DNA of 46,067 nt from a virus. The stretch covers positions 1 through 46,067 of the IMG/VR virus record IMGVR_UViG_3300030202_000854. The stretch is one strand, 5' to 3'. The notes beneath the pieces are model-generated. The model saw nothing but the letters and a program-made list of their open reading frames with translations, searched no databases and was not told the DNA's origin. Shown here one piece after another: positions 198-45,106 of this stretch. The position numbers and the translations under genes are program-made. How positions within the stretch are numbered: the first letter of the stretch is position 1; each line of letters starts with the position of its first letter.

Positions 198-716
198 TTA
201 ATCTTCATAAATATCAAACCATGCAGGGGTTTTTGTAAATTTCCATTCTGCAAATCTTCTTTTTTCTCCCAAGTAATAGTCTATGTAAGCTTCTTGGGTT
301 GGGGGTATTGCTCTTGAGGATGGGTTGACAATTTTGTACTGTTCAGGCATACATTGAGGCGGTTCATAGAATTTAGAGTGCTCAATGTTTTTGGGAAGGG
401 CTGACAATTTTGAAAGTAAACCTGACATTTCTACTTTGTGTACTTTCTTGTATCTCAAGGTGTATTGAAAGCAGAGTTCATCCAACAATTTGTGTAGCCA
501 TATATAATTACCTGACCCACTCCTAGCCCATACAGCGCAAGGGTGGTTTTTATATGCTGACTTGTACAAGTCTTTGAATTGCACTCTGTCACCATCGAGT
601 TCATGATGTGCTGTACATAACAATTGAGCACTCTCAAGAACCATCTTGACAACGTGTTTGTCACAGTGCCAAGCGGCACAGGTGGTTGGGTGATCATGCA
701 GAAAAAAGATATTCAT
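198..716 (-). CDS. Conserved phage protein, possible pyrimidine-dimer glycosylase-like fold
   Basis: 172 aa from ATG 716, chosen over the upstream ATG at 728 because GGAACGC lies correctly before it and the family begins MNIFxL. The N-terminus has the conserved block HCDKHVVKMVLESAQLL (about residues 17-33), followed by a Trp/Tyr-rich middle and a C-terminal TPAWF motif. This block is common in phage proteins of unknown function. The C-terminal TPxWF end resembles T4 endonuclease V-type proteins, so a repair glycosylase is possible, but the catalytic residues cannot be assigned by eye. The invariant Cys/His/Lys cluster could be an active or metal site. Confidence 0.6.
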   Translation of the reverse strand: MNIFFLHDHPTTCAAWHCDKHVVKMVLESAQLLCTAHHELDGDRVQFKDLYKSAYKNHPCAVWARSGSGNYIWLHKLLDELCFQYTLRYKKVHKVEMSGLLSKLSALPKNIEHSKFYEPPQCMPEQYKIVNPSSRAIPPTQEAYIDYYLGEKRRFAEWKFTKTPAWFDIYED

Positions 717-29054: not shown

Positions 29055-30400
29055 TAAACGGCTCTCATATAATTTTTTTGTTGCACTAACTCAGAACGCA
29101 TACGTTTTACTCCTAGCTCATAATCTCTAAGAGAAAACTGTGCAGCGTTATCATTACCACGTAATTGATGAGCAAAGTATTTTGCTCTTGCTACAATTAC
29201 ATCGTGAAATCTTTTTGGTATTACAGGAATATCACTAAATGATGAAAGAGGCTCTGGTTCAAAGAATACACCAAGCTCAACTGCATAAAAATCATTATCA
29301 GGAGAGGGGCATAAAACAAAAGCATCAAAATTAGTTGTAGATATTTCTTCTGGTTTACCAAATCCACTATCAGGTGAAGATAAAGCACGATAGGCTTTTT
29401 CTCTTTTTGATGTATAGTTACGACTACCTCTGTAGTATTCATCTTTGTCTAAGAAATACAGATACTCACCTGACACATCATTTGGAAATACTTCAATAAA
29501 ATCTATGTCTACGTTTGCAGAATCTTCATTACTAAGAGTAATAAACGTTTGTTGAGTAGAGGCAGTAAAGCTAGTGGTTTGTATTCTACCTCCACCTACG
29601 TTAGATATAGAAAAAGACTCCGATAGGTCAGAGTCTTTGTCAGAGGAAGAACCTGCAAATACTTTTAAAGTTACTGCAGTTGCGCTACTTGTTCCTGAAG
29701 AAAAACGCACTGTTATTCTGTAAGTATCATTCACTACAGTAGGTATAGCTTGATCTACTGTTCCATCATTTAGTCTAAGAACACCTGCAGCGTAAGCTAA
29801 GTTACCACTAGATGCATTTGATAATGCAGGAGTGCCAGAGGAGCTTGTTCCTGCAGGGTTGGTTGATCTTGAACTCCAATAGTCTGATAGAGTAAATGCC
29901 TTATCAAAACTACCATTTGTAATTAAGTTACGACCTATTATAAAAGCAGTATCAAAATCAATATCTGTGCAGTCAAGAATGTTACCGCTTGTAGCTGTAG
30001 CACTAGAAGATGCACCTGTTAAAGTTTCAGAACTTTGAAATATACCATCCTCTACTTCAAGTATAAGAAAAGAAGGACTAATCTTTCTTACTATTCCTAT
30101 AGCACTGCTAGTTCCTCCTGTAACTCTTTCGTTCATGGTAAATGCACCTGATACAGAAGATATTTTTATTTTAGTAGGAAACTTGTATTCTCTTCTTCCA
30201 CCAAACAAAGTATAGTTTACTAACTCATAATTGTATGGCCATTGATTATGCTCGTTGTTAATATCACGAATAGCCCTGTTGACATCTTCCTTAACAGTCT
30301 TTTGAATACCACGAGTTCCTGATAAACCTACAGCAGAGGCTGCAATAGTAGTTTCATTTAAGTCTAGAAGCACTGCATTTATTAGTTCAGCATAATTCAT
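29054..30400 (-). CDS. T7 gp11-like tail adaptor with inserted carbohydrate-binding-like module
   Basis: 448 aa from ATG 30400 (ATGA overlap). The N-terminus (YAELINAVLLDLNE, DVNRAIRDIN) and C-terminus (RFHDVIVARAKYFAHQLRGN, RDYELGVKRMRSEL) look like the helical bundle of T7 gp11-type adaptors that ring the portal. Between them are a Gly/Thr/Ser beta region (about 85-145) and a jelly-roll-like module (about 158-305: NLITNGSFD at the start, TYRITVRFSS and IDFIEV near the end) typical of CBM/galactose-binding domains. The insert may face outwards and touch surface sugars. Confidence 0.65.
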   Translation of the reverse strand: MNYAELINAVLLDLNETTIAASAVGLSGTRGIQKTVKEDVNRAIRDINNEHNQWPYNYELVNYTLFGGRREYKFPTKIKISSVSGAFTMNERVTGGTSSAIGIVRKISPSFLILEVEDGIFQSSETLTGASSSATATSGNILDCTDIDFDTAFIIGRNLITNGSFDKAFTLSDYWSSRSTNPAGTSSSGTPALSNASSGNLAYAAGVLRLNDGTVDQAIPTVVNDTYRITVRFSSGTSSATAVTLKVFAGSSSDKDSDLSESFSISNVGGGRIQTTSFTASTQQTFITLSNEDSANVDIDFIEVFPNDVSGEYLYFLDKDEYYRGSRNYTSKREKAYRALSSPDSGFGKPEEISTTNFDAFVLCPSPDNDFYAVELGVFFEPEPLSSFSDIPVIPKRFHDVIVARAKYFAHQLRGNDNAAQFSLRDYELGVKRMRSELVQQKNYMRAV

Positions 30401-39186: not shown

Positions 39187-40881
39187 TTAGTAGCCAAATA
39201 CAGAATCAAAAGCTTGAGGTTGTTTTTCTTTTATCTTATTCATCATAGAATTAATGGTAAGATGTCCTCTAGCTCTAGTCATGCACATATAGCGCAGTGC
39301 ATCATACGCATGGTCATCCGCTTTTGTATCTACATCTTCAGGATTAGACTTAGATAATGGAAGACTAGATAGGGTGCGAATGAGGTTAGTGCAAGTAGAA
39401 AGTATTTTTATTCTTGGTTCCTTACTAATAGGATCAAGTTGTAATCTACGATGCAACTCCATTTTTCCTGCTAACCTATTACGATCTGAAGGAGTAAATC
39501 TAGCACCACAACGTATTAAAGTTTCTGCAATGCTAGGGCCTGTGCCTGTTCTATTCCAACAAGAAGCATCAAGTACAGAATAGTACATTTGAGGATCATC
39601 CCCTTCAATGTTAATAATTATGTTAGCAAGGTTTTCAGCAGTTTGTCCTTTGCCATAAAATTCTTTGTAAATCCAAAGTGTGTCATCCCAATCTAAAGCA
39701 CCCCAAACCACACAAGAAGGGGCAGAATATCCATAATCTGCTGCACGAAGTCGAAGCCAGTTAGTAGGTATTTGAACTTGAGATGCTTCAACAACATGAA
39801 TATTTCTTGAAAATTCTGGGAAGGCTGCTCCCTCTGCAACATCCCAATCCCCATCAAGAAGTCTTCTTCTTTCCACTTCTGGGAGCGATCTTAGCATAGC
39901 TTCATATTCACCGCTTTTTGCTAAGTAGGGGTTATCCGTCAACCTTGCAGGAATAAACTTACGAAGAAATAAAGGTTGACCTGCTTTTCCGTTTGGTGCT
40001 GATTCAGGCCAAAGTAAAGCATTACCTGTTTCAACATCTGTAGCTGCAAATGGTGTATTAGCAGGGGCAGGGTCTATATACATCTTTTTAACCCACCATC
40101 CCCCAACACCACCGGGGTTACCTGTGCAACGCATATAAGCATCAATATCTGGATCAGTGGTACGAAGACGAGAGCGTAAGTATTCCCAAACGTAGGGAGT
40201 TGGGTAATGTGTAATCTCATCAATACCTATCCATGTAAATGCTTGTCCTTGATACCGTGTAACGTCCTTGTCTTTATCAAGGTATGAAAACCATGCAGTA
40301 GCACCAGAGGGAAACTGCCACATCGCTTTAGATTCTCTAAAGACTGCACCGGGAAAAGCTTTTGGATAAAGTTGCTTACTTTTATCAACAAGCTCTGTAA
40401 GTTCGTCCAAAGTACGCCTAATAATAAGAGCACGATGATTGGGGTTATCACAGTACCTAAGAAGATCAGCAAGCAAAGCATAAGACTTACCGCCACCTGC
40501 AGCCCCACCATAGAAAACATCTCTTTCTGGGCTTGCCAAAAAATTTGTTTGGGGTCCTGAATTAGGTTTAAAAACAACATCAGCTTCATTCTCCACAAGT
40601 TCTCTTACAGCTTTTGGCACATTATCTAATGTGCTTTCATCTAATACCTTTGAACCTTTAGAATTAAAGATTGCATCTTCAACTTTTTTTAAAGTCTTTT
40701 CTTTTTTCTTTACTCGTTCTCTTGCTCGTTCTGCTTTTTTAGTAGCCGCTTCTCTCGTTTTTTTAGCTTCTGATACGCTTCTTTGCGATACTCTTCTTGC
40801 TTTTTCTGCACGAGAAACGTTGTAGTTGCCTTTTTTACCTTCAGCAAGTTTAGGTCGTCCTCTTTTTTTAGTTTCTGTCAT
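39187..40881 (-). CDS. terL: Terminase large subunit
   Basis: 564 aa. Walker A GGAAGGGKS (G125-S133), Walker B WIGIDE (D221, E222), a C-motif-like YMRCTGNPGG, then the RNase H-like nuclease: D382 (AADYGYSAPS), D438 (VLDASC), D522/D523/D527 (ADDHAYDAL). It pumps DNA into the prohead and cuts concatemers. Unusual Lys/Arg-rich N-terminal extension of ~100 residues begins with KKRGRPKLAEGKK, an AT-hook-like motif, and forms a charged helix. Starts at a TAATG overlap. Confidence 0.95.
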   Translation of the reverse strand: MTETKKRGRPKLAEGKKGNYNVSRAEKARRVSQRSVSEAKKTREAATKKAERARERVKKKEKTLKKVEDAIFNSKGSKVLDESTLDNVPKAVRELVENEADVVFKPNSGPQTNFLASPERDVFYGGAAGGGKSYALLADLLRYCDNPNHRALIIRRTLDELTELVDKSKQLYPKAFPGAVFRESKAMWQFPSGATAWFSYLDKDKDVTRYQGQAFTWIGIDEITHYPTPYVWEYLRSRLRTTDPDIDAYMRCTGNPGGVGGWWVKKMYIDPAPANTPFAATDVETGNALLWPESAPNGKAGQPLFLRKFIPARLTDNPYLAKSGEYEAMLRSLPEVERRRLLDGDWDVAEGAAFPEFSRNIHVVEASQVQIPTNWLRLRAADYGYSAPSCVVWGALDWDDTLWIYKEFYGKGQTAENLANIIINIEGDDPQMYYSVLDASCWNRTGTGPSIAETLIRCGARFTPSDRNRLAGKMELHRRLQLDPISKEPRIKILSTCTNLIRTLSSLPLSKSNPEDVDTKADDHAYDALRYMCMTRARGHLTINSMMNKIKEKQPQAFDSVFGY

Positions 40882-43933: not shown

Positions 43934-44198
43934 TTGAATATTTCTTCTTGAATGTTCTTACGTTGGTAGGCTTGCCTCCTACTCCTTGTGCTTTTGCTCT
44001 CTTCCTTGCAACAGCACTCCGAATCTGACCTTTGCTCATGCGCTTCGCAGTAGCCCTTGGTACGCATTTTGGATACTTTCTTTTGCTGCCTGTGGCTGAT
44101 TTACGACCACACTGTTGAAATTTACCTTTTTTCTTTGGTGCGCCTATGTCAACCCAATCACCCTTTGGGCCTTTTCCAAACCATTCTTTTAAACTCAC
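43905..44198 (-). CDS. Basic phage protein with conserved DWVDIGAPKKKGKF motif
   Basis: 97 aa with a GTG start overlapping the previous stop (GTGA). The N-terminal half has DWVDIGAPKKKGKFQQCGR, then KYPKCVP with two Cys (C30, C45); the rest is a Lys/Arg-rich helix (KRMSKGQIRSAVARKRAKAQ). This pattern is repeated in viral and phage basic proteins of unknown role. It could be a nucleic-acid-binding protein packed with DNA. Confidence 0.6.
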   Translation of the reverse strand: MSLKEWFGKGPKGDWVDIGAPKKKGKFQQCGRKSATGSKRKYPKCVPRATAKRMSKGQIRSAVARKRAKAQGVGGKPTNVRTFKKKYSNAKSRKTKA

Positions 44199-44377
44199 TT
44201 GTATGTACCACCACGTTTCTTATAGGTACGTACTAGCCAAGCATTTGCATATGCCGAAGGGTATACCTTGAACTTACGTTTAGCTTCCGATTTAACCCTT
44301 GAATAAAGACTAGGATTGGCAGGAGTAGGAGAACCTTTTTTACGCTTTGTTTTTGGTTTTGCTTTTTTTGCGGCCAT
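44195..44377 (-). CDS. Short basic protein, NPSLYSRVKSEAKRKF motif
   Basis: 60 aa. Lys-rich N-terminus (KKAKPKTKRKKG) and a compact motif NPSLYSRVKSEAKRKFKVYP with SAYANAWLVRTYKKRGGTY, seen in phage and large-virus proteins annotated only as conserved. AAGG lies about 9 nt upstream. One of five adjacent basic genes. Confidence 0.6.
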   Translation of the reverse strand: MAAKKAKPKTKRKKGSPTPANPSLYSRVKSEAKRKFKVYPSAYANAWLVRTYKKRGGTYK

Positions 44378-44648
44378 CTTTCAATACCTTCTTTGCTTGT
44401 TTAGCTATTTTTACAACTTCATTCTTACCCATTACTTTTGCACGTTGTTCCATCACAGTAAGTATTTGTATTTTTCTTGCGTAAGGCTTTTTTATTCTTT
44501 TTACTTTTGCAACTGTGGCTCTTGCATCTGCAGGAGTGGCAAACTTAATGCTAACCGTATCTTTAGGGTTCTCATCTGTGTAGAGTCTACGACCACTACC
44601 TTTTGGTTTTTTTCCTGTTCCCTTTTTTGGGTCCTGCTTTTTTGGCAT
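44340..44648 (-). CDS. Basic phage protein of the RRLYTDENPKDTV type
   Basis: 102 aa, very Lys-rich. The motif GSGRRLYTDENPKDTVSIKF (about 17-36) and the following helices (ATVAKVKRIKKPYARKIQIL) recur in marine phages. No enzymatic residue pattern. It overlaps both flanking genes (38 and 53 nt). Confidence 0.55.
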   Translation of the reverse strand: MPKKQDPKKGTGKKPKGSGRRLYTDENPKDTVSIKFATPADARATVAKVKRIKKPYARKIQILTVMEQRAKVMGKNEVVKIAKQAKKVLKDGRKKSKTKNKA

Positions 44649-44778
44649 GGCTTGTCTTATACCTTGTGCGTTGATCTTTTTCTATCTTTGCAAGAGTTGC
44701 TGCTTGTTTAGCATGAGTACGTGATGCTTTCTTCAAACCCTTCACTACCTTTTTTAATGGTTTTGTGTAGTGAGGCAT
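44596..44778 (-). CDS. Short basic protein
   Basis: 60 aa (MPHYTKPLKKVVKGLKKASR onward), nearly one-third Lys/Arg, helical. It starts 2 nt after the stop of the cysteine-rich mini-gene and overlaps the next gene by 53 nt. No family recognised beyond its similarity in composition to its neighbours. Confidence 0.5.
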   Translation of the reverse strand: MPHYTKPLKKVVKGLKKASRTHAKQAATLAKIEKDQRTRYKTSHAKKAGPKKGNRKKTKR

Positions 44779-44780
44779 GG

Positions 44781-44894
44781 CTAACCAAAATCCTTTTTGG
44801 TTTCAGGACAAGAACATACTCCACAGCCACAGTCTTCTGCATCACATACAACTGTATCACAGTGGCAGGAGTGTTTACAAGATGAACATTCCAT
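44781..44894 (-). CDS. Metallothionein-like cysteine-rich mini-protein
   Basis: 37 aa from ATG 44894, which has GGAAA 7 nt upstream; ATG 44906 in frame would add MEIS at the front. Nine Cys occur within 27 residues, as CSSC, CHC, VVC, CGC and CSC, with two His. Almost every Cys is in a C-x-C or C-x-x-C pair, as in metallothioneins and zinc-ribbon peptides. It is the first gene after the strong promoter at 44997-45025, and the next gene starts 2 nt after its stop. Zn/Cu/Cd binding is predicted from composition; a structural zinc protein is the main alternative. Confidence 0.6.
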   Translation of the reverse strand: MECSSCKHSCHCDTVVCDAEDCGCGVCSCPETKKDFG

Positions 44895-44996
44895 ACTAAT
44901 TTCCATTTTATAATAATAACCGTAGTTTATCTCTATACTCCCTTTTTTATTTTTTGTAGGAGTGTGGAGTTGTAGACAAACTCTGGGCTAATTGTT

Positions 44997-45025
44997 AGTA
45001 TACACACCCAGAAGAGGTCTGTCAA
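44997..45025 (-). promoter_or_regulatory. Strong sigma70 promoter of the 31-kb structural operon
   Basis: On the minus strand: TTGACA (45020-45025, perfect), 17-nt spacer, TATACT (44997-45002, 5 of 6). Predicted start is near 44990, giving a leader of about 95 nt before the cysteine-rich gene. No other equally good minus-strand promoter was found between here and 13.5 kb, so this may serve the whole structural and lysis operon. Confidence 0.75.
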
Positions 45026-45077: not shown

Positions 45078-45106
45078 TTGACAACTTGCATTTTGAACTG
45101 TATAAT
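45078..45106 (+). promoter_or_regulatory. Perfect consensus sigma70 promoter, rightward
   Basis: TTGACA (45078-45083), exactly 17 nt, TATAAT (45101-45106). Both hexamers are perfect. The predicted start near 45113 leads into the tiny genes at 45138-45480, which end at the terminator at 45570-45594, giving a transcript of about 480 nt. Confidence 0.85.

Follow-up and report, generated by a model that had tools for sequence, protein, structure and literature searches.

A Putative Zinc-Cluster Mini-Protein Family with Metallothionein-like Architecture in Marine Phages

Introduction

A family of cysteine-rich mini-proteins is encoded in several groups of marine phages, and it has been missed by gene finders and family databases. 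Taken as a whole, and with somewhat less than even confidence, we read it as a virus-specific zinc-cluster family, in which one zinc core is joined to tails or amphipathic helices that can be exchanged, travels with the gene phrog_3704, and acts as a zinc-handling or zinc-scaffolded takeover module. Should these proteins bind zinc, a metallothionein-like protein would be encoded by abundant marine phages themselves, among them phages of SAR11, and trace-metal control during the infection of metal-poor ocean bacteria would become testable in culture, with the phages Mosig EXVC030M and HTVC023P and their host Pelagibacter HTCC1062. The family also illustrates how a gene family, though common, can go unnoticed in Pfam, NCBIfam, PHROGs and GenBank annotation; in this case the reason is its short length and low complexity. 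No papers on phage metallothioneins were found in the open-access literature searched, which omits most subscription journals.

The starting point was a mini-gene in an IMG/VR virus contig of 46,067 nucleotides, referred to here, over its whole length, as the window. The large terminase subunit (TerL) of this virus is about 54% identical to that of HMO-2011-type phages, e.g., HMO-2011 and HTVC115P.

The Mini-Gene and Its Operon

The initial annotation had described a frame of 37–41 aa with nine Cys in 27 residues, first behind a promoter and followed almost immediately by the next gene, and all of this was borne out (Table 1). The Cys stand at residues 7, 10, 14, 16, 21, 26, 28, 31 and 33 of the 41-aa form, and, in the same numbering, the candidate ligands are C7, C10, H12, C14, H15, C16, C21, C26, C28, C31 and C33. 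Translation probably begins at M5 (ATG at nt 44894), giving 37 aa, since syntenic relatives begin MKCTTC.. or MRCMNC... Like many members of the family, the window protein is almost without a tail, and its C-terminal DFG is similar to the DWG tail of relatives.

Table 1. Features of the window around the mini-gene.
Feature	Position	Strand	Remarks
Terminase large subunit, HMO-2011-related type	39187..40881	(-)	Used to find syntenic relatives
phrog_3704 protein, 225 aa	42911..43588	(-)	Named 'PurM' or 'ferredoxin' in records of cyanophages and pelagiphages
Lys-rich basic protein, 60 aa, next gene	44596..44778	(-)	Starts 2 nt past the mini-gene stop
Cys-rich mini-gene, 41 aa, MEISMECSSCKHSCHCDTVVCDAEDCGCGVCSCPETKKDFG	44781..44906	(-)	Probable start ATG at 44894 (37 aa)
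5' leader, ~90 nt	44907..44996	(-)	Blocks conserved among relatives: TCTACACCC.., GGGAG..GAGATAA
Sigma-70 promoter-like site, TTGACA-17-TATACT (11/12)	44997..45025	(-)	Upstream of mini-gene and operon
Divergent perfect sigma-70 match, TTGACA-17-TATAAT (12/12)	45078..45106	(+)	Reads away from mini-gene

In uncultured relatives with a TerL identity of at least about 82% and enough upstream sequence, a Cys-rich ORF heads the same operon. A TTGACA-TATAAT-type promoter lies upstream of the homologous mini-gene in 13 of 14 syntenic loci; the remaining one (L005), a truncated contig, has an upstream sequence of 131 nt. The promoter hexamers are kept among these loci and the spacers have mostly diverged. 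The encoded homologues share ligand-type residues only, with C-x2-C, CHC and CxCxxCxC invariant. Related phages do carry homologues with conserved Cys spacing, the absence of which the initial annotation had named as a refutation. The cultured or named HMO-2011-type phages lack the mini-gene near terL in all nine regions, and the motif is absent from the complete records of the same nine phages.

The conserved blocks of the leader stand far from the start codon, both in the window and in its relatives (alignment A8), and may possibly represent a regulatory element or a leader peptide. An Rfam search of the mini-gene leader gave no match, and thus no known metal riboswitch.

Following the mini-gene on the same strand are genes for basic proteins, phrog_3704, a gene that reads as terS-like, and terL. 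Homologues of the Lys-rich 60-aa protein occur near the mini-gene in L003 and L005; in L005, a gene for a SET-domain-like protein (positions 250-600 (+), by reading; phrog_28741) stands between the two. Another 60-aa protein of the window, at 44195-44377 (-), matches DUF5872 (PF19197, E 3.9e-9). The earlier claim that the mini-gene leads the structural operon thus holds here, where basic proteins, the terS-like gene and terL follow on the same strand, but it is limited to this clade: in other phage groups the mini-gene follows the DNA polymerase and a gene called 'PurM', or is found close to baseplate genes of the T4-like type. A role as a structural protein, suggested by the neighbours, was dropped because gene contexts differ between the phage groups.

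Distribution of the Family

The family was scanned for in viral contigs with a DNA pattern encoding C..C.H.CHC[DE], which was found in at least 119 stretches. As a control, the complete viral scan with the residue order reversed gave 10 stretches, none of them in a comparable gene. Among the matches listed, all but a few fall in short Cys-rich ORFs, 116 of 117 distinct proteins contain a second Cys/His cluster outside the pattern, and 94 of these 117 relatives have 8-9 Cys, the range extending up to 13.

When 257 Gb of genomes from bacteria and archaea were scanned, 95 stretches matched the forward pattern, and 80 of these 95 loci were examined, most of them being chance frames or the C-terminal motif of a larger Colwellia protein. 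The latter, seen in L221, L223, L225 and other Colwellia/Thalassotalea loci, is a cellular protein of ~200 aa that ends in CxxCGHDCHCEAAEMII, a different protein in an unrelated context. The sole family member among the 80 loci (L297) lies on a MAG contig, the genes of which resemble the phage genes that adjoin the mini-gene elsewhere. Because the only member seen in 257 Gb of cellular genomes sits on such a phage-like contig, the family is, on this evidence, viral and so far found only in viruses.

When 19 records of cultured or named phages were searched with the pattern, two members came to light, both in phages of Pelagibacter HTCC1062 (SAR11). The member of HTVC023P, at 29083, immediately follows the 'PurM' gene, where no gene is annotated; that of Mosig EXVC030M, at 90474, is Mosig_00110 (QOI69074.1), a 'hypothetical protein' a few genes away from the gp25 baseplate wedge gene. 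In the HTVC023P region (L211:4338-4748, ~29.0-29.2 kb of the phage), the frame overlaps or directly follows 'PurM', and a long hydrophobic or amphipathic frame precedes the Cys core. HTVC027P gp12, at the syntenic site, is probably a relative with Cys and His swapped. None of the three carries a functional annotation. The DNA pattern found its two members where tblastn, with the mini-protein or with ten joined relatives as the query, gave no family match in cultured phages; these Cys-rich queries were probably masked by the low-complexity filter, and we give that negative result no weight. The suspicion that relatives are overlooked was therefore justified, with one cultured copy unannotated, the other a 'hypothetical protein', and no match in Pfam, NCBIfam or PHROGs.

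Selection and Reality of the Gene

The initial annotation had proposed dN/dS as a check, and among relatives omega is well below 1 rather than at the neutral rate. For divergent pairs taken from synteny, which are free of motif bias, omega is 0.15-0.40 at dS 0.5-1.8. With motif codons removed, the median over 335 pairs, which are not independent, is 0.28, with 99% below 1. Purifying selection acts on the mini-protein family; this statement covers the family, the window gene being too diverged from its closest relatives for direct dS.

One might still regard the mini-gene as a chance or antisense ORF without function, as it is very short and no Shine-Dalgarno is seen directly upstream of it in the window. 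Among sixty dinucleotide shuffles of the window, none contained an ORF 30-60 aa long in which Cys numbered nine or more and made up 20% or more of the residues; the real window contains one. Together with the shuffles, the omega values, the enrichment of the motif over the reversed control, the syntenic homologues and the conserved promoter rule out an artefact, and we regard the probability of a chance ORF as negligible.

Metal Ligation

Three ligand positions of the family exchange Cys and His, as compared over 140 distinct proteins. Position 8 (the first Cys of the window's 37-aa form being 3) is H in 129 and C in 11, the last ligand is C in 103 and H in 37, and in every one of the 140 the inter-cluster loop has either Cys (88) or His (52). 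In HTVC027P gp12, SHH replaces CHC. Zn(II) sites tolerate exchange between Cys and His, and disulphides do not. The non-ligand residues of the core are hypervariable and 24% hydrophobic. Because of the exchanges, we infer a peptide organized by metal, most likely Zn(II), with neither disulphides nor a hydrophobic core holding it together, and on this pattern of residues the mini-protein probably binds zinc. AlphaFold2, a method that sees no metal, returned no usable fold (pLDDT 63, pTM 0.27).

A disulphide-rich exported peptide of the lysis factor, toxin or bacteriocin type would also be short and Cys-rich, and some members do have Trp-rich cationic amphipathic tails. Such a peptide is highly improbable here: the number of Cys is often odd (9, 11, 13), His is tolerated at Cys positions, and inspection of the core members revealed no signal peptide. 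A classical zinc finger or zinc ribbon regulator, with four ligands per unit and a hydrophobic core, does not describe a protein with 9-11 candidate ligands and so few hydrophobic residues in a hypervariable core.

Comparison with Known Families

The window mini-protein has no match in Pfam, NCBIfam, PHROGs or the PDB. Bacterial metallothioneins use histidine ligands and bind Zn tightly (PMC10612145), and the cluster of SmtA is Zn4Cys9His2 (PMC10119931). With nine Cys and two His, the window protein has this very ligand inventory, and it resembles the BmtA/SmtA type (PF02069; Synechococcus SmtA, PflQ2 MT; ~40-60 aa) in its CxC and CxxC clusters, its His ligands and its 37-41 aa. The order of the clusters is different: in the phage protein CxxCxHxCHC precedes CxCxxCxC, and SmtA presumably opens with CxCxxCxC and closes with CxHxxCxC. 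Also unlike BmtA/SmtA, the phage family is confined to viruses in the searches made and lacks an HMM match: PF02069 gave no hit for the window protein, five syntenic relatives or 62 family members. Searched against the window genome, PF02069 found nothing, and of 14 control genomes it was positive in 4, one of them Synechococcus elongatus. The GATA-type finger fold of BmtA/SmtA was not seen in the metal-blind AlphaFold2 model of the phage protein. PDB sequence searches with the window protein and the family profile gave nothing, and those with one relative gave chance-level nuclear-receptor hits.

The eukaryotic metallothioneins (PF12749, PF02067 and others) share the Cys density and CxC spacing, with sporadic weak matches of which the best (E 0.0065) concerns one member only; these matches stem from the Cys composition. 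Eukaryotic metallothioneins presumably lack the His positions and the fixed CHC motif of the phage family. Phage zinc-ribbon or Ral/Lar-type proteins (phrog_1055, PF11058) are likewise small, with CxxC pairs, and gave single weak matches (E 0.028 and 0.36). Proteins of this type have about four ligands and one site, unlike the phage mini-protein with its 9-11 candidate ligands in two clusters. The likeness to metallothioneins proposed in the initial annotation consequently stands as to architecture (nine Cys, two His, CxC/CxxC, short length) and fails as to membership, PF02069 and the other libraries being without a match. The mini-protein may work like a metallothionein; its membership in such a family is unsupported.

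Proposed Mechanism

The best single explanation, which we consider about evenly poised between right and wrong, would be a virus-specific metallothionein-like zinc mini-protein for uptake and buffering. The mini-gene would be transcribed from its host-type sigma-70 promoter during infection, and its product would bind about 2-4 Zn(II), with 8-9 Cys and 2-3 His as ligands, arranged in two clusters. These would follow the plan C-x2-C-x-[H/C]-x-C-H-C, a loop with one more Cys/His, and then (C-x-)C-x2-C-x-[C/H], with the metal, most likely zinc, folding the protein in place of disulphides or a hydrophobic core. The mini-protein could capture zinc set free by the breakdown of host proteins and ribosomes, and either hold it in exchangeable form for phage zinc proteins or keep free zinc low; the initial annotation had suggested the primase and the polymerase insert as possible recipients. 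Where a short tail or amphipathic helix is attached to the core, as in several phage lineages, it would presumably place the core at a partner or membrane. Several points speak against this explanation: known metallothionein and zinc-finger families give no match, a pure buffer would not be expected to carry conserved lineage-specific tails or fused amphipathic helices, the gene regularly found nearby is phrog_3704 rather than a metal transporter or zinc sensor, and the leader has no known metal riboswitch.

The phrog_3704 Neighbour and Modular Tails

Among the matches listed, ~40 of 124 loci have a phrog_3704 gene no farther than four annotated-size ORFs from the mini-gene. Three arrangements are found: behind the DNA polymerase (HTVC023P-type), beside T4-like baseplate genes, and several genes downstream, as in the window. 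When the phrog_3704 proteins of cultured phages were used as the reverse query, 15 of 80 loci had the mini-gene no more than 2.5 kb away, in each case on the same strand. The recurrent neighbours examined included no metal transporter or sensor.

The phrog_3704 protein is annotated 'PurM' or 'ferredoxin' in ~100 phage records, and a survey of pelagiphages reports purM in 45% of 82 genomes, with cysteine, zinc and metallothionein unmentioned (PMC9599517). On reading, it has no ferredoxin Cys motif, and both names were set aside as evidence; they possibly represent a widespread misannotation. Its structural model, of moderate confidence (pLDDT 72), weakly matches tandem SH3-like Agenet/SAWADEE modules (best E 0.0039, low TM-scores), an identity that we treat as a lead and not an assignment. 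The PHROGs label 'ferredoxin' could nevertheless point to a metal carrier of the Cu(I)/Cd type, or one related to Fe-S proteins, in place of a zinc protein, and dense CxC/CxxC clusters can bind Cu(I). We judge such a carrier unlikely, as the recurrent Cys-to-His swaps favour Zn(II), the neighbour lacks the ferredoxin motif, and its best weak fold matches are to SH3-like modules.

The tails DWG..ME, SYENEVK, ECLSCQ and SFNGA recur on different cores, and one core bears different tails. Amphipathic helices are fused at either end of the Cys core, or occur alone at the same site, helices of the MIDKWxYxFFG type being found in both forms. The tail ECLSCQ is likewise seen at the end of an unrelated mini-protein with four Cys, which occupies the same place in the genome. 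This modularity, along with linkage to phrog_3704 in three phage groups, argues for a zinc-structured adaptor for host takeover, in which the Zn core would be a scaffold and the tails or amphipathic helices would bind a host protein or membrane. We regard the adaptor as a serious possibility, albeit one less likely than buffering, as many members, including that of the window, are almost without a tail, the non-ligand core residues are hypervariable, and 8-13 Cys far exceed the need of a minimal scaffold. Uptake and buffering of zinc is the reading we favour, by a modest margin.

The four-Cys mini-protein (CKKCKEAFDANDELDMFCSQQCKEEALA..DECLSCQ) was seen after the phrog_3704 gene in L320, L326, L337 and L339. 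Short amphipathic ORFs of the form MIDKWxYxFFGxxDxxF.. are located behind the phrog_3704 gene in L103, L316, L322, L328, L333 and L343, and in L103 a similar amphipathic stretch is fused to the Cys core.
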